Part shown: positions 33,983-47,370 of the stretch, in pieces | How the letters are laid out: each line of letters opens with the position of its first letter | Numbering within the stretch: position 1 is the stretch's first letter | Program-made: the position numbers and the translations under genes | DNA from: Opitutaceae bacterium | GTDB taxonomy: Bacteria > Verrucomicrobiota > Verrucomicrobiia > Opitutales > Opitutaceae | Length of the DNA: 64,000 nt | Direction of reading: 5' to 3' | Assembly (NCBI GenBank): GCA_003164715.1 | Contig: PLTZ01000013.1 | Location: 62,001 to 126,000, forward strand | Notes under the pieces: generated by a model | The model's input: the letters and a program-made list of their open reading frames with translations, nothing else | Told to the model about the DNA's origin: nothing | Databases searched by the model: none

Positions 33983-34235
33983 CACGATTATCACTACGGC
34001 GCCCGGGCCGCCCATTCAAGTCCGCGCGCAGGGCGGCGCTGCGGCATAGAGGGCGCTTGTAGACTGGAGTAGGAGCCCTGCAATCCGCGCCGGGACTCCG
34101 GCGATTCTTCAGACGGCACTAGAAAGCCATAAACGTCGTATCGGCAATGGTTAGCATCCTCCGGAGTTCCCGGACCGGGCACCGCCGCCCGGGATTGCGC
34201 TAAGAATCCGTGGCGTGGCGTGTCTTTATTAATCG

Positions 34236-34853
34236 ATGGAGTCATGCTTGTCTCCCCTTAATGCCCCCATGGAACCGCTGATGTTCGAAGGCGAGCAGCC
34301 GAGACCGTCCCCCGCCTCAATCTCCGAGGTTCCGCGGCCCGAGGGCGCGCAGCCCCGTCCCCGGTCGATCGTCGCGCTGTTCCAGTCGGAGGAGAGCGCG
34401 CTGCTGCACTTCGCCCTCGGCATCGTGGGCCAGCGCGCGGTCGCCGAGGAGCTGGTGCAGGAGGGGTTCCTCCGCCTCCAGAAGGTCTGGGGCCAGGTGG
34501 ACAATCCGCGCGGCTGGATCTACCGCAGCATCCGCAACCTCGCGCTCAACCACCTGCGCGACAGGCCCAGGGAGACTCCCTTGGACGAGGAGCGCGCCTC
34601 TGCGGAGGAGAGCCTGCCGCGCGACCTCCTCGGCCGCAGCGAGGCCGTGGGGACCGTGCGCATGCTGCTCGCGGAGATGCCCGAGGAGGACCGGAACCTG
34701 ATCACACTCAAATACCACGAGAACCTGAAATACCAGGAGATCAGCAGGAGGACGGGGCTAAGCGTGGGAAACGTGGGGTTCAGGCTGCACCACCTGCTGA
34801 AGGGGCTCCTGGACGGCCTGCAGCGCGCGGGCATCGAGGGGAGCCAGGGATAG
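34236..34853 (+). CDS. ECF-type RNA polymerase sigma factor
   Basis: A 205-residue sigma-70 family factor with only regions 2 and 4. Region 2 covers about 55-110 (EELVQEGFLRLQKVW, RGWIYRSIRNLALNHLRD), and region 4 about 145-200 (MPEEDRNLITLKYHENLKYQEI, with a helix-turn-helix ending in GNVGFRLHHLLKG). An extra N-terminal stretch of about 45 residues is Pro-rich. ATG 34269 or 34281 would shorten it; no ribosome site favours one start. The following gene begins nine bases after its stop and encodes a membrane protein with an anti-sigma-like cytoplasmic end, so the pair should work together. The 220-bp region before it has no recognisable -35 GGAAC in the right direction. Confidence 0.9.
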   Translation: MESCLSPLNAPMEPLMFEGEQPRPSPASISEVPRPEGAQPRPRSIVALFQSEESALLHFALGIVGQRAVAEELVQEGFLRLQKVWGQVDNPRGWIYRSIRNLALNHLRDRPRETPLDEERASAEESLPRDLLGRSEAVGTVRMLLAEMPEEDRNLITLKYHENLKYQEISRRTGLSVGNVGFRLHHLLKGLLDGLQRAGIEGSQG

Positions 34854-34862
34854 GAGGCCACC

Positions 34863-37418
34863 ATGAATTACGACGAAAAAGACAGCGAAACGAAGGGAAA
34901 GATCTCAGCCGAGCTGGAGGCGCGCATCGTGGCGTGGATCTCCGGAGAGGCGCCCGCGGGCGAGGTGGCGGAGCTCGAGCGGCTGACGGCCGAAAACCCC
35001 GGCGTCGCGGCCTTTAAGAAGCAGATCGAGGCGACGCGGAAACTCGTGGAGGAGGCGGTGTCCCCCGACCCGGTGCCGCTCAGGCTCTCCAGTGAGCGCC
35101 GCACCGAGCTTCTGCGGGCCCTGGGCCGGCAGGAGGGCCCGGCCGCCGATGCGGTCGCGTCGCTGGCCGCCCTGAGGCGCCGGCAGCGGATCGAGCACCA
35201 GTGGTTCCTTGCGGCCGCGGCCTGCCTCGTCCTCGGCCTGTTCGTGTCCGCGATGTTCATCCCGTCCTTCCAGAGGGTTCATTCCGCGTCGGCGCAAAAG
35301 CGGGCGCCCTATGTCATGGGTATGGAGGTGAGGCAGGAGAAGTTGCAGAAGGCCGAGAGGTTGGCCCGGGAGGAGAAGAACGAGTCGGCGACCTATTCCG
35401 GAGAAGGCCGGGACCGTGAGGTCGTGATCCAGATGCCGGCTTTGGCCGCGGACGAGGTGGCGGAGGCGAACCCTCCGCAAGCCGACCAGGCCGCGCCCGA
35501 GGAGCCCGTCGCCAGGGGGTACGGGTCGCCGCGGATGGAGGCGAAGCTGTTGCCGGCGCCAACGGCGTTCAGCCCGCAACTCACGCTGTCGGCGGTCGCG
35601 GGCAACAAGAAGGAGTTCGACGAGTCGATCCAGCGGAGAGCGGCCGGGTATGTCGAACGCTTCGGCACCGCGGCCGCACCGGAATCGGCCGGCCATGGCG
35701 GGGTGGTGGCGGGGAGTCTGGCCACCGGCGAGGAGGCTTCCCTTTCGCCGGCGCCCATGAACGCGCCCGAGTCCCGGTCCGAGGCGCCGATCGTGCTCTC
35801 GCCGTTCTCGGTCGACGCCACGGAGGACAAAGGGAGCTACCGGGCGAACAGCACGCTGGCCGGCACCCGCGTGCGCACGGACCTGAAGAGCGTCTCGTCG
35901 GGGATCAACGTGGTATCCGCGCAGTTCCTTAAGGACGCCGGCGCGAAGAATGCGCAGGACCTGTTAAGCGACACACCAAAGACGGAAGGCGCGGGACCAA
36001 ATGTTATGTTGTTCGGCACGGGGTCCCCGGGCGAGGTCCCGCCGTCCGCGGTGGCCGCAGCGCTCGCCCCTGCGGGCGCCTCGACCCAGGAGGAGACGTC
36101 AGCATCGAGGGAGCCCGTCTCCACGTTCTCGCTCCACGTGAGCGACGTGTCCTTCCGGCTTGCGCAGGAGGCGCTGGCCCGCGGCGAGCTGCCGGACCCC
36201 GCCGGGATCCGCCCGGAGGAGTTCTACAACGCCTTTAGCTACGGAGACCCCGAGCCGTCGATGGAGGAGAAGATCTCGTGCCGCACGGAGCAGTCCGCCG
36301 ACCCCGTGATGCAGCAGCGCAACCTCGTGCGGATCGCGATGCGCGTGCCCGCCACAGGCCGCGGCGCCGCGGAGCCCCTGCGCCTGACCGTGCTCCTCGA
36401 CACCTCGGGATCGATGGAGCGCGAGGACCGCGCGGCGGCCGTTCAGAGCGCCATGAAGGTCCTGGTCTCGCTCCTCGGGCCCGCCGACCGTGTGACGCTG
36501 ATCGGGTTCGCGCGCCGGCCGCGGCTCCTCGCCGACCGGCTGCCGGGCGACCAGGCCGGCCGGCTGCTCGAGATCCTCGCGCACACCCCTGCCGAGGGAG
36601 GAACGAACCTCGAGGAGGCGATCAAGCTCGGTCGCGAGGTGGCGCTTCGCCAGTACCTTGCGCAGGCGCAGAACCGGGTCGTGCTGCTCACGGACGGCGC
36701 GGCCAATCTGGGCGACGCCGACCCCGCGCACCTGGCCACGCTCGCCGAGGCCATGCGCCAGCAGGGCATCGCGTTCGACGCCTGCGGCGTCGGGACCGAC
36801 GGGATCGACGACTCGGTCCTCGAGGCGCTCACGCGCAAGGGTTCGGGGCGCTACTACGTTGTCGACACCCCGGAGTCGGCCAACGCCGGATTCGCCCGGC
36901 AGCTGGCCGGGGCGTTCCACCCGGCCGCCGAGAACGTCAAGGTCCAGGTGCGGTTCAACCCGGCGCGGGTCGGCGCCTACCGGCTGATCGGCTTCGAGCA
37001 CCACCGGCTCAGCAAGGAGGACTTCCGCAACGACAAGGTCGCGGCGGCGGCACTCGCGGGCGGCGAGGCGGCGGTGGCGCTCTACGACGTCGAGGTGCTC
37101 CCGCAGGGCGACGGCGAACTCGGCGAGGTGTACGTGCGTTTCCGCGACACGGCCGGCGGCGCGATGGTCGAGCGCTCGTGGACGCTGGCCTACGACGCGC
37201 ACGCGCCGGCCTTCGACCGGGCGAGCCCCTCCATGCAGCTCGCGGGGACGGCCGCGCTCCTGGCCGAGAAGCTCCAGGGCGGCCCGCGGGCGGGCGCCAT
37301 CCACCTCGCCCAGCTCGCGCCCGTCGTGAACGCCCTGCGCGGCCGCTATGCGCACGAGGCGAGGGTGCAGGAGCTTGCCGCGATGTACGAGCAGATGCGC
37401 CGCATCCGCCCGGAGTGA
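34863..37418 (+). CDS. Membrane anti-sigma-like / TonB-plug-like / von Willebrand A fusion protein
   Basis: An 851-residue protein with a very unusual order. (1) A cytoplasmic helical part, 1-110, acidic and resembling the N-terminus of anti-sigma factors, without the zinc HxxxCxxC motif. (2) A transmembrane helix, 113-134. (3) A Pro/Ala/Glu-rich linker. (4) A segment, about 309-372, that reads like the plug of Opitutaceae TonB receptors (VLSPFSVDAT, NSTLAGTRVRTDL, INVVSAQFLKDAGA). (5) A von Willebrand A module: N-terminal extension about 418-470, MIDAS DTSGS 513-517, Rossmann domain to about 690 and a YfbK-like C-terminal domain. Shine-Dalgarno AGGAGG lies seven bases before the ATG. The gene is co-transcribed with the sigma factor and probably controls it from across the inner membrane. 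The role of the plug-like part is unknown. Confidence 0.8.
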   Translation: MNYDEKDSETKGKISAELEARIVAWISGEAPAGEVAELERLTAENPGVAAFKKQIEATRKLVEEAVSPDPVPLRLSSERRTELLRALGRQEGPAADAVASLAALRRRQRIEHQWFLAAAACLVLGLFVSAMFIPSFQRVHSASAQKRAPYVMGMEVRQEKLQKAERLAREEKNESATYSGEGRDREVVIQMPALAADEVAEANPPQADQAAPEEPVARGYGSPRMEAKLLPAPTAFSPQLTLSAVAGNKKEFDESIQRRAAGYVERFGTAAAPESAGHGGVVAGSLATGEEASLSPAPMNAPESRSEAPIVLSPFSVDATEDKGSYRANSTLAGTRVRTDLKSVSSGINVVSAQFLKDAGAKNAQDLLSDTPKTEGAGPNVMLFGTGSPGEVPPSAVAAALAPAGASTQEETSASREPVSTFSLHVSDVSFRLAQEALARGELPDPAGIRPEEFYNAFSYGDPEPSMEEKISCRTEQSADPVMQQRNLVRIAMRVPATGRGAAEPLRLTVLLDTSGSMEREDRAAAVQSAMKVLVSLLGPADRVTLIGFARRPRLLADRLPGDQAGRLLEILAHTPAEGGTNLEEAIKLGREVALRQYLAQAQNRVVLLTDGAANLGDADPAHLATLAEAMRQQGIAFDACGVGTDGIDDSVLEALTRKGSGRYYVVDTPESANAGFARQLAGAFHPAAENVKVQVRFNPARVGAYRLIGFEHHRLSKEDFRNDKVAAAALAGGEAAVALYDVEVLPQGDGELGEVYVRFRDTAGGAMVERSWTLAYDAHAPAFDRASPSMQLAGTAALLAEKLQGGPRAGAIHLAQLAPVVNALRGRYAHEARVQELAAMYEQMRRIRPE

Positions 37419-37484
37419 CGCACCCGGCGGACCCTCACCCACCCCAACCCTGGGCGTGGCCGATTTCAAACCAAAGGATATCAG

Positions 37485-40400
37485 ATGAATGGATACAAAA
37501 TCACCGGATCCGCCCCGCTAAGGGCCGGCGTCGCGGCGCTTGCCGCCCTTTCCCGCGCGCTCTGCGCGCCGTCCCCGGAGCCCGACCAGGCGAGCGTGTC
37601 GGCGGGCCTCACGCCCGAGGGCGGGCGGATCGTGGTCGAGGCCAAGGGGATGCCGGCCCCGGCGCCCCTCTTCTTTTCCGCGTCCGTCGAGGAGACGGTG
37701 CGCCTCGGGACGGCGGCGGTCGCCGGCGAGATGCGGCTTCGACTCCATGTCCTTCAGGGACGGCCCGAGGTGCTGACACTCGGGCTGTCGGGCGACGGCG
37801 AGGTGACGGACGTCGCGGGCCCCGGCCTCGGCGCCTGGTCCGTGCGGCGGGCCGCCGGGCCTTCGGGCGCCGGGAGGCTCCTCGATCTCAAGCCCGCGGG
37901 CGAAGCTGCCGGGGCCCGGGACTTCGAGCTTGTCGTGCGGACGCGACTCGAGAAACCGGCCGTGCCGGGAACGACCGCCGTCCTGGTCGCCACGCCGGGC
38001 GAGGCGGCCGGGTTCTCGTCCACGGTCGAGCTTCGCGCCGACCCGGACGTCGACCTGCGCGTGGCGTCCGCGGCCGGGGAGCTTGCGCTCGGGGGCTTCG
38101 AGGCGCCGGCCGGCCCGCCGCGGTTCATGTCGACCGGTGACGGCCGGATCGAGGTGAGCCTCGCCCGGCGGGGCGCGGCCGTCGGGGACGCGGAACTCGC
38201 CGGGGCGCAGCTCTTCGGAAGGCTCGCGGCCGCGGGTTCAAGTGTGGACTTCACGCTCCGGGGCCAGCTCTTGGTGAGGAGGGCGGGGGCGCGCCTGCGG
38301 ATCCTCTCGGGCCGGGCGGCATTGAGCGACCGGACCGCCGGCGACGGCTGGCACGCGGAGCTCGTCCGGGTTGGCGGGGGCCGCTTTGCGTACGACCTGG
38401 TGGGCGAGCGCGAGGGCGCGCTGCCCTTCGAGCTTGCCTTCGCGGCCGCGGTCGCCGAGCGCGGCGACTGGCGCGCGCTCGACTTCGCCATGCCGGCCGG
38501 CGCCGTCGTCCCCCTGGACCTCGAGGGCCTCGGTTCCGGCGTCGCGTTTGATCCGGACCTGCCGATCGTCCCGGCGCCCGCCAGGGCCGGCTGGAGGGGG
38601 TTCCTTCCCGCGGACGGCTCGGCCTCGCTCGCGTGGAAGCCGCTGCGCGCGGCCGAGCAGGGCGCGCTCTTCTTCACGAGCTCCGAGCAGACGGACGTGC
38701 GCGTCGGGGACGGCCTCCTGCGCGAATCGTCGCGTCTCACGCTCCGGGTGCTGCAGGGGAAGCTTGGCTCCGTCAGGCTGCGCCTCGAGGGACCTGGGGA
38801 GATCCTGGGGGTCGAGGGGGCGAACATCGTCGGCTGGAAGGTCGTGCCCGACGGCAACGCGCGGGTTCTCGAGGTGAGGTTCAGCCGGCCGGTGGAGGCC
38901 GAGGGCTCGCTCACCGTGAACAGCCAGGCCGAGCTCGGGGGCTTCCCGGTCCGGGCCGAGCCGCTGCGGCTCGTCCCCGAGGGCATCGTCCGGCACTCCG
39001 GCTTCGTGCGCGTGGCGAACCGCGGGTCCGTGCGCCTGGAGGTGGCGGACGTGACGGGGATGATGCAGCTTGCGCCGGCGCAGTTCCCGGGCGGGGAGGC
39101 GGAGGCGGGCGTGCGCCAGGTCTTCGTGTTCCGCTTCCCCTCGGCCGACTACGGCTACCGCGTCGCGGCCACCGAGATCCAGCCCGAGGTCGGCGTCTCG
39201 GAGGTCTCGACCTACGAGCTGTCGGAGACCGACCGGGTCATCAATACCGAGCTTGAACTCGACGTGCGCGAGGCGCCACTGAGGGACTGGTTGGTCGGGA
39301 TCCCCGACGACTTCACGGTGGCCTCGGTCGAGGGTGGCGGCGTGACCGACTACGTGGCCGAGGCCTCGTCGGCCGGCGGTTACAGGAGCCTGAAGGTCAT
39401 CTTCGGCCGCGCCGTGGAGGGCCGCCAGCTCGTCAGGCTGCGGCTCGAGAAAAACCAGCAGGCGGCCGCCGGGGACTGGAGCCTGAGGCCGCTGCGGTTC
39501 CCTGCCGCCAAGTCCGTGCAGGGGCATGTCGGCGCCGTCTCGACGCCGGGCTACCGGATCGTGCCCGCGAGGGTCGAGCAGCTGGTCGAGGTCCCGCTCA
39601 GCTATTTTCCGAGGCAGACCGCCGGTCTCCAGCAGGCGTGGCGGCTGCGCGGCCAGGAGTGGTCGGCAGATTTGAGGGTCGAGGCCCTGGGCCAGAGCGT
39701 CCAGGCGGACGTGTTCCACCTCTATTCGATCAAGGAGGGGATCGTGTATGGCAGCGTGCTGCTCAACTACTTCGTGGTCGGCGCGCCGGCGAGCCAGTGG
39801 CGCATCCAGGTCCCCGCGTCCGTGGGCAACATCGACGTCGTGGGCGAGAACGTCCAGCGCGACTGGCGGCGGGAGGGCGACCAGGTCGTGGTCACGCTGC
39901 ACCAGCCGGTGCTGGGCGCCGCCACGCTCCTGGTCACCTTCGAGCAGCCGATGAGCGCGCGGGGCGGCACCATAGAGCCCGGCCAGGTCCGCCCGCTCGG
40001 CGTTCAGGCCGAGCGCGGGTTTGTCGAGGTGGTGAGTCCGCTGCAGGTGAAGTTCGCCGTCCGGAAGGCCGAGGGCGGGCTCCTCAAGCTGGAGCCCATG
40101 GAGCTGCCCGCGGAGTTCCGGCTGCTCAGCAGCGCGCCGGCGCTCGCGGTCTACCAGTACACGGCGAGGCCCTTCAGCCTGGAGATGGGCGTCGAGTGGT
40201 ACGCGCAGGCGGAGACCGCCGACCAGGTCATCGACTTCGCCAAGCTCTCGAGCCAGGTCTCCCGCGACGGGCAGGTCGTCACCGATGCGCAGTATTTCGT
40301 GAAGACCCATGGGCGCAAGGCCCTGCGGATGTTGATCCCGGCGGGCATGAGGCTGTGGGAGACCCGCGTCGACGGCGAAGCGGCGAGCGCCCAGGTCGAC

Positions 40401-43400
40401 GGCGACACCACGCTCATCCCCCTGCCGGCGCGCGCGAACCCGAACGAGCCGGTCTCGGTGGCGCTGCGCCTGGGGCAGGCGGCGGGCCCGTCGGGCTCCG
40501 ACGTGAGCCTCCTGGCGCCGCGGATGGCGGCCCCGGCGGTGGTCTTGGAGTGGACGCTGCGCGGCGACCCGGGCCTTCTCTTGGTGCCGCGGGGCGGCTC
40601 GGCGAGCCTCGTGCACCCCGCCCTGACCGAGAGCGGCTTCGAGTGGATCTGCGCCCGGGGCTCCGTCGCGGTCGCGTCGCTGCTGGCCGTCGTCCTCCTC
40701 GGGGCGCTCCTCCTCTTGTCGGAGTCGACATGGCGGGTGTCGACCGGCCTCGCGTGCTGCCTCGTGGCGATGGTCGCCGCGTCGATGCTCGCGGCCGACG
40801 CGATGCTCAACCGCCGGGCGAACCTGGGCGAGCTGGCCTACGCCGCGACCATGGTGACGCCCGAGGAGGGCGTCTCGATCCGCGTGGCGAATGTCGGCGA
40901 ATGGCGGGCCATGCTCGTCGGGTGGGGCGTCGCGGCCGCCGCCGCCGGGGCCGCACTCGCGGTCGCGGCCCGGGTTCCTTCCCTTCGCGGCCGTCCGCTC
41001 GCGCGGATCGCCGGCCCGGCTGCGGCCGTCCTCGTCTCGGTCGGGCTCCTGGCCCAGCACGGCGGGGCCGTCCTCTTCTTCGGCGCGGCGTGCGCGGCGG
41101 TGTTCCTGGCCCTGTTCGTGCCGGGGGCCAGCCGCCTGCAGGCGGGCAGGCGCACCGAAAGGCTGGCGCCGCCCCCGGGCCCCGGGGCCGCGACCGTGGC
41201 GTCCCTCCTTGTCGTCGTGGGCGCCGCGGGCCTTTCGCTCGGGTCCGCCCCGGCGCTGCGCGCCGAGCCCGTGCCGGCGCCCTCCGCCTGGATGCAGGAG
41301 GGCTCGAAGGCCGCCCAGGCGATGGTTGAGAACTGGAGCATCCGCAACGGCCGCCTGTTCGCCGACGTGCAGGTCACGGTCCGGGGCGGCCCCGGCGACA
41401 GCTTTCTCCTGCTGCGGGCGCCCGCGACGCTGACCAATTTCTTGGGCGACGGCCTGAGGGTCGGGAAGGTGGAACGCGGCGGGGAGACCTGCTACTACGT
41501 CGCGCCCGAGCGCGAGGGCACCTTCACGGGCCGTGCCCGTTTCGAGATGCCTGTCGCCAAGGGCTCCCGCGGGATCGCCGTGCCGACAGGGCCGGCCGCC
41601 AGCCAGCGGATTACCGTCGAGCTGGACCAGGGCGGATGGGAGTTCACCTCGCCCATGGCGGTTCAGGTCGCTTCGACACCGGGACTCGGCGACTCGAAGA
41701 GCGGGGCCACCCTCATCCTTGCGCCCCAGGGGGAGCCGAGGATCGTGCTGCGGCCCGTGCGCCGGGACGTGGCCGCGGAGCAGACCCAGTTCTACGCGGA
41801 GGCGTCCAACCTCTACGTGCCCGGTCCGGGCGTCGTGGACGGGTTCGCCCGCGTCACCATCCGGCCCGTGCAGGGGCGCGTCGCGGAGCTCGACCTCGAT
41901 ATCCCGAAGGGGCTGACCGTGGGCGACGTGGTCCGCGGACCCGTCGGCGCATGGCGTTTCGACCCCCTGTCCCACCGCCTGCACGTGGCGGTCGAGCCCG
42001 CCCAGTCGGAAACCTTCGGCTTCGATGTCGCCACCCAGCTCGGCGCGGGGGCGCTTCCCTTCCAGGTGTCGCTTGAGCCGCTCCGGGTGGTCGGGGCGGT
42101 GGGCCAGGTGGGCACGCTCGCGACCGCGTTCGGGCCGGAGGCGCAGCCGGAGAGTGTCACGGCGGCCGGGCTTTCGGCCGTGAACGTCGAGGACTTTGAC
42201 ACGGCTCTCGTTCCGCGGACGCGCGACGACCAGCCCGCCGCCACCGTGCAGCAGGTCTGGCGCTACGGCCAGTCGGGCGGCCGCGTCGACCTCAGGATCG
42301 CGGCGGTCGCGCCCGAGGTCCGCGTGACGTCGCGCCAGGTGCTTTCGCTCGGCGACGACCGGATGGTGATGGCGGTCGACCTGAACGTGTCGATTTCGCG
42401 GGCGGGGCTCTTCAAGCTGAGCTTCGCGCTGCCGGAGGGCCTCGAGCTCGAGGCCCTGAGCGGGGCGGCCTTGAACCAGTCGACCGAGGCCGACGAGGGC
42501 GGGACGCGCGTGGTCACGATGCACCTAAGCGGGCGCACGATCGGCGAGAAGGCGTTCGCGCTCACGCTCGGGGGCGCGGCCCCGCGGGCGCAGGAGGCCT
42601 GGCCGGTTCCCCGGGTGGCGATCCGCGAGGCCGGCCGCCAGACGGGCGAGGCGCTGCTCGTCCCCGGAAAGGGGTTGCGGCTGCGCGTTGCGGAGCGCGG
42701 GAAGGTGACCCAGGTCGATCCCGTCTCGGTCGGCGGGCTCCAGCCGGGGACGCTGGCGTTTCGCCTGCTCGAGGGCGACTGGACGCTGCGCGTGGGCATC
42801 GAGGCGCTTGAGCCCTGGGTGACCGTGCAGTCCCTCCAGGAGGTCACCGTTCGCGAGGGCCAGACGCTCACGCGGATCGGCCTGCGGTGCCGCGTCGAGA
42901 ACGCGGCCATCAAGCAGTTTCGGGTCCGGCTTCCGGGCCTCGGCGAAGAGCGCGCAAGGACCGTGCGGGCAACCGGCCCGGCCGTCAGCGACGTGGCGAG
43001 GGTGGAGGGCTCGCCGGACCTCTGGGAGATCCGCTTCCAGCGGGGCATCGTGGGGGACACCGATGCACAGATCGAATTCCAGGGCCCGGCCGTGCGCGAC
43101 GCGGGCCACGAGGACATCGCGCCCCCGGAGTTCCCGGGGGCCCGCCAGGCCGTGCAGTACGTCGCGGTCCGCGGGAGCGGGCGCCTCGAGCTCGAGGCCG
43201 AGCACCTGCCGCGGGGATGGGTCCGCGCGGACTGGGGCGCGGTCGCCGCCAACCTCCAGTCGCGCTCGGACCGGACGGTCCCCGCACTCTGCTTCCGCGT
43301 CGCCGAGCCGGAGCGGGCGCTCGCCGTGACCGTCCGCAGGCACGACATCGCCGGTGCGCTCCGGCTGCGGGTCACCGAGGCCGGCCTCACGACCGTGTTC

Positions 43401-44459
43401 TCCGCGTCGGGGGCCTCCCTAACCTCGGTGGACCTGAGGGTCGTCGTCCTTGAGAAGAGCACGCTGCGCGTCCGACTGCCCGAGGGCGCCCGCCTGTTCA
43501 ACACGTTCGTCAACGGCGAGAGCGTCTCCGTCGTGCGGGAGGGCGACGCCTACCTGTTCCACGTCGCCGCCAACACCGAGGCGGACCCCTCGGCGTCGGT
43601 GCGCCTCGTCTACTCGGCGCAGTCCGCGGGGGGCGGCCCGGTCGCGCTTGCGGGACCGAGCCTGAGCATCCCGCTCGAGAACGTGACCTGGCGGGTCGTG
43701 GTCCCGCCGGGCTACCGCCTTGAGCGCTACGGCGGCTCGCTCCAGCTCCGCGAGGTGCGCCTCGCGGGGATGTTCGGCGTCGAGCAGTACAAGTCGCTGG
43801 TCGTCTCGACGCGCGCGGCCAACGCCCAGAAGGCGATCGCCATGCTCGACCAGGCCAACTCCTTCCTCCAGAGCGGCGACCAGCAGCGGGCCGGTGAGAT
43901 GCTCAGCCGCGCCTCCAACGCCCAGCTCGACGAGGCCTCGAACGAGGACGCGCGCGTGCAGCTGCGCGTCCTGAAGACCCAGCAGACGATGCTCGGGCTC
44001 AACACGCGCAGGCAGAGGCTCTACCTCGACAACCGCGCCGACGGGCCGCGCAACGAGCAGCTGGAGCAGGCCGCGAGCTTGAACCCCTTCATGCGAGGGA
44101 AGGTCAACTTCGACCCGCAGCAGGTCGACCAGCTCCTCATGGGGAACACGGCCGACGAGAACGCGGCCCTTAAGGGCATCGCGTCGCGGCTTGTAGACCA
44201 GCAGCTGGGCGCCGAGCCCGCGCCGGGCGCGATCGACCTCACGCTCCCCGAGCACGGGAGCGTGCTCACATTCACGCGCAGCCTGCAGGTGGACGGCGAG
44301 GCGCCCCTCGGCCTCAGGCTCTCCCTCGGGAGGATCCGCTACGCGAGCCTCGGCTACAGCCTCTTCGCGCTGTTGGCCGTGGCCGCCATTGCCGCGGTCC
44401 CCACGCGCCGGGGACCCAGCGCCGCGGGAACCCCTGGAAACGCGCCCCACGGATCCTGA
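37485..44459 (+). CDS. Giant 2324-residue envelope protein of unknown function
   Basis: I do not recognise a family function. A weak signal peptide (about 10-28) precedes long beta-rich stretches without cysteine pairs. Two related units occur near 61-120 and 393-455 (share LxVLQG...GWxV). A cluster of about four or five hydrophobic helices lies at 1055-1220. Immediately after it comes a second signal-peptide-like helix (about 1236-1258, ending ALRAEP), so the protein looks like two exported polypeptides joined together. The second half is again beta-rich, then a Gln/Asn-rich helical region (about 2105-2240), and a C-terminal transmembrane helix (2289-2307). The gene is 66 bp after the vWA fusion and 58 bp before tonB, all on one strand. 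It could be a scaffold, surface structure or assembly machine tied to vWA and TonB. GC and codon use look like the neighbours. Confidence 0.75.
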   Translation: MNGYKITGSAPLRAGVAALAALSRALCAPSPEPDQASVSAGLTPEGGRIVVEAKGMPAPAPLFFSASVEETVRLGTAAVAGEMRLRLHVLQGRPEVLTLGLSGDGEVTDVAGPGLGAWSVRRAAGPSGAGRLLDLKPAGEAAGARDFELVVRTRLEKPAVPGTTAVLVATPGEAAGFSSTVELRADPDVDLRVASAAGELALGGFEAPAGPPRFMSTGDGRIEVSLARRGAAVGDAELAGAQLFGRLAAAGSSVDFTLRGQLLVRRAGARLRILSGRAALSDRTAGDGWHAELVRVGGGRFAYDLVGEREGALPFELAFAAAVAERGDWRALDFAMPAGAVVPLDLEGLGSGVAFDPDLPIVPAPARAGWRGFLPADGSASLAWKPLRAAEQGALFFTSSEQTDVRVGDGLLRESSRLTLRVLQGKLGSVRLRLEGPGEILGVEGANIVGWKVVPDGNARVLEVRFSRPVEAEGSLTVNSQAELGGFPVRAEPLRLVPEGIVRHSGFVRVANRGSVRLEVADVTGMMQLAPAQFPGGEAEAGVRQVFVFRFPSADYGYRVAATEIQPEVGVSEVSTYELSETDRVINTELELDVREAPLRDWLVGIPDDFTVASVEGGGVTDYVAEASSAGGYRSLKVIFGRAVEGRQLVRLRLEKNQQAAAGDWSLRPLRFPAAKSVQGHVGAVSTPGYRIVPARVEQLVEVPLSYFPRQTAGLQQAWRLRGQEWSADLRVEALGQSVQADVFHLYSIKEGIVYGSVLLNYFVVGAPASQWRIQVPASVGNIDVVGENVQRDWRREGDQVVVTLHQPVLGAATLLVTFEQPMSARGGTIEPGQVRPLGVQAERGFVEVVSPLQVKFAVRKAEGGLLKLEPMELPAEFRLLSSAPALAVYQYTARPFSLEMGVEWYAQAETADQVIDFAKLSSQVSRDGQVVTDAQYFVKTHGRKALRMLIPAGMRLWETRVDGEAASAQVDGDTTLIPLPARANPNEPVSVALRLGQAAGPSGSDVSLLAPRMAAPAVVLEWTLRGDPGLLLVPRGGSASLVHPALTESGFEWICARGSVAVASLLAVVLLGALLLLSESTWRVSTGLACCLVAMVAASMLAADAMLNRRANLGELAYAATMVTPEEGVSIRVANVGEWRAMLVGWGVAAAAAGAALAVAARVPSLRGRPLARIAGPAAAVLVSVGLLAQHGGAVLFFGAACAAVFLALFVPGASRLQAGRRTERLAPPPGPGAATVASLLVVVGAAGLSLGSAPALRAEPVPAPSAWMQEGSKAAQAMVENWSIRNGRLFADVQVTVRGGPGDSFLLLRAPATLTNFLGDGLRVGKVERGGETCYYVAPEREGTFTGRARFEMPVAKGSRGIAVPTGPAASQRITVELDQGGWEFTSPMAVQVASTPGLGDSKSGATLILAPQGEPRIVLRPVRRDVAAEQTQFYAEASNLYVPGPGVVDGFARVTIRPVQGRVAELDLDIPKGLTVGDVVRGPVGAWRFDPLSHRLHVAVEPAQSETFGFDVATQLGAGALPFQVSLEPLRVVGAVGQVGTLATAFGPEAQPESVTAAGLSAVNVEDFDTALVPRTRDDQPAATVQQVWRYGQSGGRVDLRIAAVAPEVRVTSRQVLSLGDDRMVMAVDLNVSISRAGLFKLSFALPEGLELEALSGAALNQSTEADEGGTRVVTMHLSGRTIGEKAFALTLGGAAPRAQEAWPVPRVAIREAGRQTGEALLVPGKGLRLRVAERGKVTQVDPVSVGGLQPGTLAFRLLEGDWTLRVGIEALEPWVTVQSLQEVTVREGQTLTRIGLRCRVENAAIKQFRVRLPGLGEERARTVRATGPAVSDVARVEGSPDLWEIRFQRGIVGDTDAQIEFQGPAVRDAGHEDIAPPEFPGARQAVQYVAVRGSGRLELEAEHLPRGWVRADWGAVAANLQSRSDRTVPALCFRVAEPERALAVTVRRHDIAGALRLRVTEAGLTTVFSASGASLTSVDLRVVVLEKSTLRVRLPEGARLFNTFVNGESVSVVREGDAYLFHVAANTEADPSASVRLVYSAQSAGGGPVALAGPSLSIPLENVTWRVVVPPGYRLERYGGSLQLREVRLAGMFGVEQYKSLVVSTRAANAQKAIAMLDQANSFLQSGDQQRAGEMLSRASNAQLDEASNEDARVQLRVLKTQQTMLGLNTRRQRLYLDNRADGPRNEQLEQAASLNPFMRGKVNFDPQQVDQLLMGNTADENAALKGIASRLVDQQLGAEPAPGAIDLTLPEHGSVLTFTRSLQVDGEAPLGLRLSLGRIRYASLGYSLFALLAVAAIAAVPTRRGPSAAGTPGNAPHGS

Positions 44460-44517
44460 CACCGGAGCAACCCCTGACCCCAGGAACGAGAAACGATAAT
44501 CATCAAACCATACCCCC

Positions 44518-45168
44518 ATGAACCGTCTCAACCTGATGCTCGGAGCCGTCCTCTCCATCACGCTCATCGCCGGAATCGCCTATTATGGCGAGATTACGGG
44601 GCACTTTCATCCGGCCCTGATGCCTACGCCGGGGCCGACACCAACGCCGACCCCCTTCGTCCTCAATTCCGATCCCGTCGAGGTCACCGACACGAGCACC
44701 CCGCGGCAGCAGACGAAGGAGGATGTCGTCTCCCCGCCTATGCAGCCGGACACCCCGCAGGCGAAGCTGCCTGACGCCTTCACCGTTCCGCTCGAGCCTC
44801 CGCCCGCACCCTTCGATCCGAATATAGCCAAGATTCCCCAGGGGCCTCGGGGAACGGTCTCGACCCCGCACATCTGGGACCCCGGTCAGCTTGAGCAGCA
44901 GCCGGTCCCGAAATATCGGGCCATTCCCGTCTACCCGGCAGAGATGAAGCGCGAGGGAATTTCTGGGGAGGTCCTGGTGGACTTCATCGTCGACCCGAGC
45001 GGCAACGTCAGGAATCCGGTCGCCGCCCGCTCGAGCCAGCGCGAATTCGAGGAGCCGGCCTGCCGGGCCGTCGCAAAGTGGAAGTTCACCCCGGGCATCA
45101 AGGGCGGCCGCGCCGTCTTTGTCCACATGCAGGTGCCGATCGTCTTCACGCTCAAAGAGGCAGATTAG
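44518..45168 (+). CDS. TonB-family energy transducer
   Basis: A 216-residue TonB protein: short cytoplasmic N-terminus, transmembrane helix 5-23, a Pro/Thr-rich spacer about 36-125, and a C-terminal TonB domain about 130-214. The last contains RAIPVYPAEMKREGISGEV, the VDFIVDPSGNV turn, and AVAKWKFTPGI, the standard marks of the domain. TonB passes proton-motive energy from ExbB/ExbD to outer-membrane receptors. No exbB/exbD or receptor gene is beside it. Its place after the plug-bearing vWA protein and the giant protein suggests it may act on them. Confidence 0.9.
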   Translation: MNRLNLMLGAVLSITLIAGIAYYGEITGHFHPALMPTPGPTPTPTPFVLNSDPVEVTDTSTPRQQTKEDVVSPPMQPDTPQAKLPDAFTVPLEPPPAPFDPNIAKIPQGPRGTVSTPHIWDPGQLEQQPVPKYRAIPVYPAEMKREGISGEVLVDFIVDPSGNVRNPVAARSSQREFEEPACRAVAKWKFTPGIKGGRAVFVHMQVPIVFTLKEAD

Positions 45169-45216: not shown

Positions 45217-45996
45217 TCATTGCTCGAGCTGGGCGTAGCGGTGCTCGCACCAGGCCTGGCCCAGGACCAGGGCGCCAAGCGCAGCGATCCACGCGACGGC
45301 CTGGTGCGCCGCGAAATAGAAGAAGAGCCGCTCGTCCCAGGGCACCGTATTGCCCTGAAGCAGGGATCCAATCGCGGGTCCGAGGCTGACCAGGATGATC
45401 ACGGCCCAGAAGAGGAACCTCCGATGCTTGCAGGGATAGATCAAGTAGACGAAGACCTGCACCGCCACGGCAAGGGCGAGGAACTGCCAGGCATGCCACG
45501 CCGCGATCAGGACGTTTCCCAGGGGAATAGAGACGAGGTTGGAATGCGCGCCCGAGTCTGAGACAAGAGCGCTTCCCGGGATGCACCGGAGGCATTCAAG
45601 CCGGATTACTCTTGAGTAGATCGCCACGCGCAGATCGGGACTCCGGAGCGAAGCCAGGAGCACGCCGACTGGGGCGACCATACCGACGATGAAGAAGAAG
45701 GCGGCCTTGGCCCTTACCAGCACGCTCTTGTCGACCGCCCGAGTCCGAATGAATTCCGCTCCGAGCCCAACCGTCTGGTTTGTCGAGGACTGCGAGAACA
45801 TTTCCGGAGCGAGCAGCAGGGCCCCGAGCAGGACGACCAGGAACAAGTTCTGTGTGAAAAAGAGCATGCTAAACGACGGGGCCCCGCGCCAGATGAAGAT
45901 GAGCGGGGCACAGAAGGAGAGCGGGAACACCCAGACAACGGGGCTCACGGCTGCCTGATACCTGATGAGCGCCCAAAACTGCTTTGATAGGTTCAT
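45217..45996 (-). CDS. ABC-2-like membrane permease of a YtrA-type operon
   Basis: A 259-residue integral membrane protein of about six helices, with no known catalytic motif. It is the third gene after a GntR regulator and an ABC ATPase, so it is most likely the permease of that transporter. It starts nine bases after the ATPase stop. Three cysteines cluster at about 143-147 (ECLRC). Similar operons in Firmicutes respond to cell-wall antibiotics; here the substrate is unknown. Confidence 0.65.
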   Translation of the reverse strand: MNLSKQFWALIRYQAAVSPVVWVFPLSFCAPLIFIWRGAPSFSMLFFTQNLFLVVLLGALLLAPEMFSQSSTNQTVGLGAEFIRTRAVDKSVLVRAKAAFFFIVGMVAPVGVLLASLRSPDLRVAIYSRVIRLECLRCIPGSALVSDSGAHSNLVSIPLGNVLIAAWHAWQFLALAVAVQVFVYLIYPCKHRRFLFWAVIILVSLGPAIGSLLQGNTVPWDERLFFYFAAHQAVAWIAALGALVLGQAWCEHRYAQLEQ

Positions 45997-46005
45997 AGAC
46001 TTGGG

Positions 46006-46887
46006 TCAGTTGCGGGACAGTTCCACAAAGATGTCCTCGAGGTTCAGCGCGCGGCTCTCGAGCTGGCACGACCACCGGCTGGCAAGCTCCTCAGGCGTCG
46101 CGCCCGAATTGATCCGCATCGTGACCGTCATTTCGTCCTTGGAGCGGACCGTTCGGAAACTTCCGGGCGCGTCGGCATTCGGAACGCCGCCTTTGAAGCC
46201 GAAGAAGCGCACCTGCCGGATCGAGTCCTTCAGCGAGTCGAGGGGCTCGCTGACGCGCAGGGTCCCGTTGGCAAGGATGCCGATCTCGTCGGCCACGCGC
46301 TCCACGTCGCTCAGGATGTGGGTCGAGAACAGGACGGTGCAGCCGCAGTCGCGGATGAGCTCCAGGATGTCGTCGAGGACCTCGCGCCTGGCGACCACGT
46401 CCAGGTTCGCCGCCGGCTCGTCAAGCAGCAGCACGCTGGGCCGAGGCGCGATGGCCATGATGAACCCGAGGATCCTTTGGTTCCCCTGCGAGAGCGCCGT
46501 GAGGCGCTGCTGGGGCGAGATGCCGTACTTGAGGACGAGCGCCTCGACCAGCTCCGAGTTCCAGCTGGGATAGAGGTCGCGGCCCAGCCTGAGGACGGCC
46601 TTCACCCGGATCAAGGGGTTGACCAGCCCCCTCTCGGACATGTAGCCCAGCCGCTGGCGCTCCTCCGCGCCGATGCTGAAGGGGTCGTTCCCCGAGATGC
46701 GGACGGTCCCGGCATCGGGCCTGATGAGGCCCGCCAGCATCCGGATCGTGGTCGTCTTGCCCGAACCGTTGCGGCCCAAAAAGCCGTAGATGCTGCCGGC
46801 CTTAATGGAGACGCTCATGGCCCGGATGACCGGGACGCCGTCGAACGACCGGCTGGCGTTCAGGATTTGAATGGGTGTTTCGCTCAT
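46006..46887 (-). CDS. ABC transporter ATP-binding protein (YtrB-like)
   Basis: A 293-residue ABC ATPase. Walker A GRNGSGKTTT and Walker B VLLLDEPAANLD are intact. The signature is ALSQGNQRILGF, a variant of LSxGQ with N in place of the usual G/Q pattern, seen in the YtrB branch. A C-terminal extension of about 80 residues follows the ATPase core, as in antibiotic-export ABC proteins. Its start overlaps the end of the GntR gene by four bases. Confidence 0.85.
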   Translation of the reverse strand: MSETPIQILNASRSFDGVPVIRAMSVSIKAGSIYGFLGRNGSGKTTTIRMLAGLIRPDAGTVRISGNDPFSIGAEERQRLGYMSERGLVNPLIRVKAVLRLGRDLYPSWNSELVEALVLKYGISPQQRLTALSQGNQRILGFIMAIAPRPSVLLLDEPAANLDVVARREVLDDILELIRDCGCTVLFSTHILSDVERVADEIGILANGTLRVSEPLDSLKDSIRQVRFFGFKGGVPNADAPGSFRTVRSKDEMTVTMRINSGATPEELASRWSCQLESRALNLEDIFVELSRN

Positions 46888-47276
46888 GGGATCTGGGCCT
46901 TTCGGTTCAGCTTTCGGAATCTCTCGGAAATGAGGGCGTTGATCTCGTCCGCCCCGAGGCCGAGGTGGGTTGCCTCGGCGACGAGCTGGTCAACGGCGGG
47001 GCCCACCTGCTGGCGGCGGGCGTCCATCCTGAGGACGGCCGGTCGCGGGGAGACATAGGTGCCGATCCCGCGGCGAGTCTCGACGAAGCCGTCCCGCTCA
47101 AGGAGCTGGTAAACCTTGGCCACGGTGAGCGGGTTCACGTGGAGCTCTGCTGAGAGGTCGCGCACTGAGGAAAGCTGAGCCCCGGGCTCGAGCTGGCCCG
47201 ACAGGATGCGCTGCCGTATCTGCTGCTGGAGCTGGACGTAGAGGGGGACTCCGCTGTTGGGATTGAGCAGGAACAC
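46884..47276 (-). CDS. GntR-family regulator (YtrA-like)
   Basis: A 130-residue repressor. The winged-helix domain starts with VPLYVQLQQQIRQRI and contains the recognition part SVRDLSAELHVNPLTVAKVYQ in part; the short C-terminus is typical of the YtrA group. I choose GTG 47276, giving a YtrA-like N-terminus. An ATG at 47321 is in frame, but those codons lie over the operator at 47283-47302 and the promoter. It likely represses its own operon. Confidence 0.82.
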   Translation of the reverse strand: MFLLNPNSGVPLYVQLQQQIRQRILSGQLEPGAQLSSVRDLSAELHVNPLTVAKVYQLLERDGFVETRRGIGTYVSPRPAVLRMDARRQQVGPAVDQLVAEATHLGLGADEINALISERFRKLNRKAQIP

Positions 47277-47282
47277 GGTGTA

Positions 47283-47302
47283 TTGCTGTAGTAATACAGT
47301 AA
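47283..47302. promoter_or_regulatory. Inverted-repeat operator of the GntR/ABC operon
   Basis: TTGCTGTAGTAATACAGTAA is a dyad with 16 of 20 positions symmetrical and core halves CTGTA/TACAG. It is AT-rich, sits seven bases upstream of GTG 47276 and overlaps the likely promoter (TTGACG at about 47309-47314 on the minus strand). It is the natural site for autorepression by the encoded GntR protein. Confidence 0.6.
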
Positions 47303-47370
47303 TAACGCGTTCGTCAAACAATAAGAATGTGGCGTTCCCCGGGCCTCGCGCGGACGGGCGGAGCGGGCCC

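Follow-up and report, generated by a model that had tools for sequence, protein, structure and literature searches.

The FecI-FecR-FecA system resembles the locus considered here in that an ECF sigma factor is encoded beside a single-pass membrane regulator. The locus lies in a 64,000-nucleotide stretch of DNA from an Opitutaceae bacterium (hereinafter the window, part of contig 48 of a 3.8-Mb draft genome), and adds to this arrangement a TonB-box/plug piece and a TonB gene. It is distinguished from FecI-FecR-FecA by a regulator that ends in a vWA/YfbK module, by the location of the plug piece inside the regulator itself, and by the presence of a giant protein, whereas a receptor with a barrel is missing from its four genes and no FecR domain was matched. 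The locus is also similar to pairs of ECF sigma factors and YfbK-type proteins that occur without a giant, such as L090, L093-L097 and L216, in which the sigma factor is likewise followed by a protein with an N-terminal region, a transmembrane (TM) segment and a YfbK-type vWA domain. In contrast to the window, L090-L097 show no giant-sized open reading frame beside the vWA gene, and their vWA proteins are 33-37% identical to that of the window; a sigma gene was found for most of them, while L216 is known from a 4-kb stretch only.

YfbK-like vWA proteins with tolQ/tolR neighbours have been proposed as force transducers in PVC bacteria, and the portion of PMC12204202 on which we draw describes one family with an SHLS motif in the TM helix, whose genes lie beside tolQ/tolR-like genes, and a second whose genes lie beside tolQ. 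These proteins share with the window protein a tether in the inner membrane, a vWA domain of YfbK-like fold and an occurrence in Verrucomicrobia and Planctomycetes. The window differs from what that portion describes in that an ECF sigma gene precedes the vWA gene, the SHLS motif is absent from the vWA protein, and neither tolQ nor tolR is found among the four genes. The consulted part of a study of Rhodopirellula baltica, which deals with ECF factors under stress (PMC2754498), contains nothing on a sigma-vWA-giant operon, and in the corresponding part of PMC3174227 a vWA gene and ECF factors appear as unconnected entries. A search for von Willebrand or vWA in the main texts of PMC7406223 and PMC8103513 recovered neither term, and no earlier description of a sigma-vWA-giant operon was found by title and abstract in the open-access collection searched.

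The first-pass annotation of the window had claimed four consecutive plus-strand genes at 34236-45168, and the open reading frames, their order and the intergenic gaps of 9, 66 and 58 bp were all confirmed on the sequence. Pfam searches detect Sigma70_r2 and Sigma70_r4_2 in the first product, vWF_A, VWA and YfbK_C in the second, no domain in the giant, and TonB_C in the fourth. The features of the locus are as follows:

34200..34226, plus strand: predicted sigma-specific promoter, CTAAG-N15-GTGTCTT, the sole exact match in the genome
34236..34853, plus strand: ECF sigma factor, 205 aa (Sigma70_r2 1.7e-12, Sigma70_r4_2 9.6e-12), start perhaps at 34269
34863..37418, plus strand: single-pass membrane vWA protein, 851 aa, with N-terminal anti-sigma-like region, TM segment, variable stalk, and vWF_A, vWA and YfbK_C
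35778..35996, plus strand: TonB-box and partial plug within the stalk, residues 306-378 (E 7e-33 with the HMM of receptor N-termini)
36399..36413, plus strand: vWA metal site DTSGS, residues 513-517, together with T581 and D611
37485..44459, plus strand: giant envelope protein, 2324 aa, with two periplasmic arrays, a central TM cluster and a C-terminal TM segment (all predicted)
38658..40199, plus strand: three tandem placements of M1-N-domain/Ost1-like β-sandwiches by VIA-align, residues 392-564, 566-734 and 737-905
40662..41240, plus strand: central cluster of six hydrophobic segments by hydropathy, residues 1060-1252
42810..44342, plus strand: C-terminal Ost1-like domain pair, residues 1776-2286, with a helical insertion (2099-2242) in the last domain
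44518..45168, plus strand: TonB-family protein, the lineage-specific fourth gene, 216 aa (TonB_C 6.5e-20)

Three minus-strand genes (45217-47321) end beside the TonB gene and lie outside the operon; they have the look of an ABC permease, an ABC ATPase and a GntR regulator, which we presume them to be.

Relatives of the giant are present in 24 of 150 sampled genomes of the same family, with that of the window counted. When GTDB r220 was scanned with each species represented by a single genome, 378 stretches encoding such relatives were recovered, from which 79 loci were kept, 65 from Verrucomicrobiota and 14 from Planctomycetota. Wherever at least 700 bases are available upstream of the giant, a vWA gene is found 5' of it in both phyla (64/64 loci; 63 by profile HMMs and L122 by tblastn, which detects the C-terminal end of a vWA gene just upstream of the giant). 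The gap between these two genes has a median of 96 bases and a range of -237 to 1333 in 64 loci that hold both, exceeding 400 bases in six of them. Similarly, a sigma gene lies upstream of the vWA gene on the same strand in all 56 loci where 600 bases or more precede the latter; in L120 and L166 it is further removed, apparently owing to a split vWA reading frame. In the first sample, vWA matches of more than 40% identity accompany a giant wherever the contig permits. The sigma-vWA-giant order across two phyla is far beyond chance, and the conserved unit is one of three genes, encoding the ECF sigma factor, the membrane vWA/YfbK protein and the giant. There is no conserved fourth neighbour among the 79 loci, the biggest cluster of neighbouring genes being found in 9 of them, with mixed frames and on both strands. 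Hence, of the system of four genes put forward in the first-pass annotation, the sigma factor, vWA protein and giant stand, and the TonB protein, found at 2 of 65 loci, does not as a general member. For the three that stand, neither a separation of the genes nor unrelated targets of the sigma factor, the two observations which were held to speak against such a system, are seen as far as the sequence tells.

The two loci with a TonB gene 3' of the giant, besides the window, are L107 and L113 (the latter on the contig designated L066 in the first sample), the 65 loci considered being those with at least 800 bases downstream; a repeat with a TonB profile again gave 2/65, and TonB was rejected as a core member outside one clade. 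The window, L107 and L113 form a single starred clade on the tree of vWA cores described below, and all three stalks carry a fragment of a TonB-dependent receptor, of which L113 keeps only a part, with the box part lost. Because the TonB gene and the receptor-type stalk coincide in this clade, the extra TonB may act on the stalk there, an idea that is weakened by the partial retention of the fragment in L113. The genome of the window (G000) contains 18 TonB_C matches in all.

The sigma factor of the window scores 78.4 bits against TIGR02937, with a cut-off of 42.9, and both of its Pfam regions are above their cut-offs, which identifies it as a member of the ECF group. Short-word counting upstream of 54 sigma genes uncovered a bipartite motif, which in the form CTAAG-N15..17-GTCT lies ahead of the sigma gene in 26 of the 54 loci, including the window. 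The 2.56 Mb of strand covered by the loci contain 28 copies of this form, 26 of them at a sigma gene; three of these 26 copies are inside over-long sigma open reading frames and fell outside the first search window. One of the remaining two is at position 8222 of L114, directly 5' of the giant gene, and the other is elsewhere. By our own reading of the list, 19 of the other 28 loci have a one-mismatch site near the sigma start. The stricter form, CTAAG-N15-GTGTCTT, is found in one copy per genome in 11 of 14 giant-bearing genomes and in none of the 10 genomes without a giant match. Ten of these copies are on the module contig at the sigma gene, and the eleventh, in G097, is on another contig and precedes by 65 bases a sigma gene that is followed by the start of a vWA gene. 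Of the three giant-bearing genomes that lack the strict form, G003 and G024 show a one-mismatch site at the sigma gene, and the contig of the third, G108 (L105), carries the motif minus its last T. With a spacer one base longer, the motif is absent from all 24 genomes. Given that the motif is present once per genome, before the sigma gene, in 11/14 genomes as against 0/10, the sigma factor most likely serves its own operon, and the site reads as a predicted promoter for self-regulation, with strong targets elsewhere few or absent.

A wider sigma regulon was considered and rejected, since one-mismatch sites show no excess over a reversed-pattern control. Eight such sites besides that of G097 were opened, of which seven lie in stretches with neither a sigma nor a vWA gene, and one is at another ECF-YfbK pair, that of L216 (212-2386), where a closely similar motif, CTAAG-N15-GCGTCTT, is found at the sigma gene. 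Judging from the motif of L216, there may be a wider sigma-YfbK class sharing this type of promoter. In the window, an in-frame ATG at 34269 (MEPL...) is situated 43 bases after the motif, and because the ATG of many relatives is about 36-40 bases past theirs, the translation of the sigma factor perhaps starts there instead of at 34236.

The vWA protein of the window, with one TM segment (115-133), is predicted to cross the inner membrane once and has an intact metal site. We compared 67 vWA proteins, namely 57 from the HMM-found loci, that of the window and nine of the first sample (the motif filter failed to pick up L086 and L089), of which 65 could be divided into stalk and core, L124 and L134 being indivisible. 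In all 65 the core, from vWF_A to the C-terminus, is 424-436 residues long and the end of the TM segment falls within residues 120 to 197, while the stalk that connects them ranges from 172 to 1249 residues, with a median of 500. All 43 proteins scanned contain vWF_A, VWA_2 and YfbK_C, and are thereby assigned to the YfbK type; the YfbK_C match of the window protein spans only positions 3-62 of 184. D513, S515, S517, T581 and D611, which we take to form a MIDAS site, are invariant in 43/43 aligned vWA proteins.

Profile searches of the N-terminus of the window protein gave no match to a known anti-sigma family, and no FecR family was detected in the protein up to E 0.1; three vWA paralogues without a giant have sub-threshold zf-HC2 matches. 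On the basis of gene order and topology, we infer that this N-terminus is an anti-sigma region. The earlier view that plug-like and anti-sigma-like parts are united in one polypeptide without a barrel is supported, the plug-like part by a fragment 75% identical to a receptor. The pilin-like Pfam domain DUF1559 is supported in the vWA proteins of L136 and L140 only; by eye, the TM regions of L136, L140, L088, L084 and the window resemble the start of a type IV pilin or DUF1559 protein.

In the stalk of the window protein, residues 306-378 are identical at 55 of 73 positions to the N-terminus of a TonB-dependent receptor, with a Pfam Plug match, on contig C50 of the same genome. The fragment represents part of a plug only, with no barrel after it, and the stalk has just two similar places in its own genome, one of which is this receptor. 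With an HMM built from the N-termini of 23 receptors, 11 of the 67 vWA proteins score E 7.5e-14 or lower, against E 0.15 for the next-best one, and none of the 64 giants scores below E 1.7; the order of the receptor pieces is altered in L075, L076 and L105. With the receptor fragment in just 11/67 vWA proteins, the plug-like piece loses its place as a defining part of the system. Of the 39 stalks scanned singly against Pfam, those of L157, L108, L110 and L151 contain autotransporter repeats, some contain TPR pieces, and those of L104 and L168 contain STN/Secretin_N, with weaker matches in L119, L123 and L173; FecR_C is seen below its cut-off in L104 only, and in many stalks no Pfam module is recognised. 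The L104 stalk matches the region N-terminal to the Secretin domain (PF00263, E 6.5e-34) in a real secretin, L229. By phmmer without filters, under which weak matches may merely reflect composition, this secretin is matched at E <1e-10 by 7 of 65 stalks and at E <1e-5 by 11 of 65. A weak alignment also extends into the secretin barrel in L108 and L163, and a short Secretin piece (E 0.0018) is present in L150, so that these three stalks are not certain to be barrel-less. The eight stalks checked for composition are rich in A, S, G and E.

On a tree of the 65 cores built by a quick method, the initial labelling of module types requires 18 changes, which could be gains or losses, the tree being silent on their direction. 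The first secretin labels were taken from Pfam alone, with weak matches included, and a recount with phmmer hits gives 5 changes for the 7 strong rows and 9 for the 11 rows, of which the starred branches force 5 and 7 respectively; 43 of 500 shuffles are as low as the 11-row count. For the receptor-type stalk the starred branches force at least 2 changes. L117, L118 and L123 have near-alike cores with stalks of 1045, 397 and 805 residues, indicating a fast turnover of the stalk.

The nearest channel relatives were sought for five stalks. The own genome of L104 supplies its best channel match among 20 genomes (49%), for L084 the own-genome channel is best (65%), with only another vWA protein scoring higher, and for the window its own receptor (66%) is the best receptor match among 223 genomes when up to four candidates per genome are scored, a ranking that is provisional. 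The own genome of L101 ranks second among 20, after a 166-residue open frame of a related genome, and that of L075 ranks third. Because the own-genome channel is nearest for L104, L084 and the window (3/5), a recurrent copying of stalk pieces from own channels is suggested. An open frame of 166 residues resembling a TonB-receptor N-terminus, L226 (G010, contig C135, 10829-11221), matches the L101 stalk at 55% and is possibly a free-standing receptor fragment. A lead from CarbopepD_reg_2 in the own genome led nowhere.

The giant shows no family or usable match in Pfam, NCBIfam or PDB sequence and profile searches, its lone PDB profile match, to a TonB at E 1.1, being dismissed. Its two halves are mutually homologous in a profile comparison (E 2e-55). 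Each half was modelled with AlphaFold2, giving a mean pLDDT of 87.9 and a pTM of 0.44 for the N-half, and 89.0 and 0.43 for the C-half; the single domains are confident and their relative placement is not. In VIA-align comparisons, the N-half domains match M1/M61 N-domains with Z 11-12, mostly over 144-163 residues at rmsd 3.1-4.1, the third placement (737-905) being based on one M61 row, and the first domain pair matches Ost1 with Z about 15 over 318 residues at rmsd 22. The last two domains of the C-half match yeast Ost1 with Z 15.6 over 312 residues at rmsd 21, and the last of these matches an M1 N-domain with Z 14.4 over 147 residues at rmsd 2.8. These matches cover the domains named, the other parts of the models having been barely compared. 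Integrin-alpha matches returned by Foldseek have low TM-scores and were set aside. On these models the arrays are predicted to contain β-sandwich domains of the M1-aminopeptidase-N-domain/Ost1 fold. As in Ost1/ribophorin I and the M1 N-terminal domains, a TM helix would come after tandem β-sandwiches in the C-terminal part; unlike these, the giant has more tandem copies and a central TM cluster. Since Pfam and PDB profile searches detect no kinship to Ost1 or M1 in sequence, and the HExxH motif of M1 metallopeptidases is missing from all 64 giants, the modelled resemblance is best taken as one of shared fold rather than family membership. Asgard versions of Ost1 are treated in the part of PMC11417166 consulted.

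Besides the central cluster, the window giant has a C-terminal hydrophobic segment (2287-2305), and among 63 relatives at least three central segments are found in 60 and a C-terminal one in 54. Positively charged loops between the central segments, as read from the sequence, fit a periplasmic location of both arrays, and the giant is predicted to be a polytopic, inner-membrane-anchored protein.

From gene order, topology and promoter, an ECF/anti-sigma feedback loop is the simplest reading of the locus, and we tentatively favour, at not quite an even chance, an operon that is self-contained, regulates itself and serves envelope homeostasis. In it, the vWA protein would hold the sigma factor with its cytoplasmic N-terminus, its periplasmic vWA domain would bind the giant or its clients via the metal site, and its stalk would dock by imitation on the partners of outer-membrane channels, namely TonB for a receptor-derived stalk and secretin partners for a secretin-derived one. 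Depletion or occupation of the giant, or a pull on or displacement of the stalk, would release the sigma factor, upon which the operon would raise the output of both the giant and its own regulator. An extra TonB joined the operon in the window clade. The gene order, the distribution of the motif, the metal site, the TM layout of the giant, the coincidence of TonB and stalk, and the own-genome channels count for such an operon. Against it count the N-terminus without an anti-sigma family match, the lower rank of the own genome for L101 and L075, the 6/64 gaps of more than 400 bases, and the great variability of the stalk, which in many proteins has no recognised module and could be a mere spacer. 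A more specific proposal, which we regard as doubtful, is that of integrated imitation: the stalks of vWA anti-sigma proteins would repeatedly copy the barrel-less periplasmic N-terminus of one of the cell's own outer-membrane channels, a TonB receptor or a secretin, and would compete for, or be gripped by, the periplasmic partner of that channel, such that channel traffic or failure would lead to the release of a sigma factor dedicated to the giant. If true, the bacterial envelope would have its own equivalent of integrated-decoy receptors.

The variability of the stalk invites the opposite interpretation, to which we assign a rather low likelihood, that it is a flexible spacer which acquired its channel pieces through illegitimate recombination and without any role, the locus being a plain ECF/anti-sigma pair that controls a structural envelope protein. 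Its range of 172-1249 residues, the composition of the eight stalks checked, the reordered receptor pieces and the many stalks without a Pfam match are consistent with this; the recurrence of the same two channel classes, with at least two receptor and five strong-secretin changes forced on the quick tree, argues against it. TonB-driven cell-surface signalling, a reading near to that of the first-pass annotation, in which the TonB of the operon would engage the TonB-box of the stalk, force would open the anti-sigma region and the giant would be a cargo-binding or bridging part, appears unlikely. It draws on the close identity of the TonB-box and plug sequence to a real receptor, and on the adjacency of TonB in exactly the window, L107 and L113, all of which bear receptor fragments; however, 63 of the 65 loci with room downstream have no TonB gene beside them, the box part is lost in L113, the genome has 18 TonB_C matches, and the mechanism can hold for the window clade only. 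Improbable, in our view, is a role for the giant as a periplasmic scaffold on which exported proteins fold or dock, akin to that of Ost1/ribophorin I by the translocon, with the sigma/vWA pair reporting unfolded clients. Ost1 is indeed the highest-Z structural match for both halves, and the predicted anchoring in the inner membrane would suit such a scaffold, yet the match is at the level of fold only, with about 11-12% identity and rmsd 21-22 over two domains, the PDB profile search gave no Ost1 or M1 match, the top Foldseek matches are mixed with integrin alpha chains, and a fold does not show function.

The proposed autoregulated operon joins an uncharacterised giant of two phyla to a single predicted self-directed promoter, and so offers a small testable regulon, which matters for bacteria whose envelopes are poorly known. 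The models would also place tandem domains of the Ost1/M1-N type in a bacterial membrane giant. The stalk pieces, if functional, would imply that an anti-sigma sensor can be given a new target by taking up modules from the machines it monitors.
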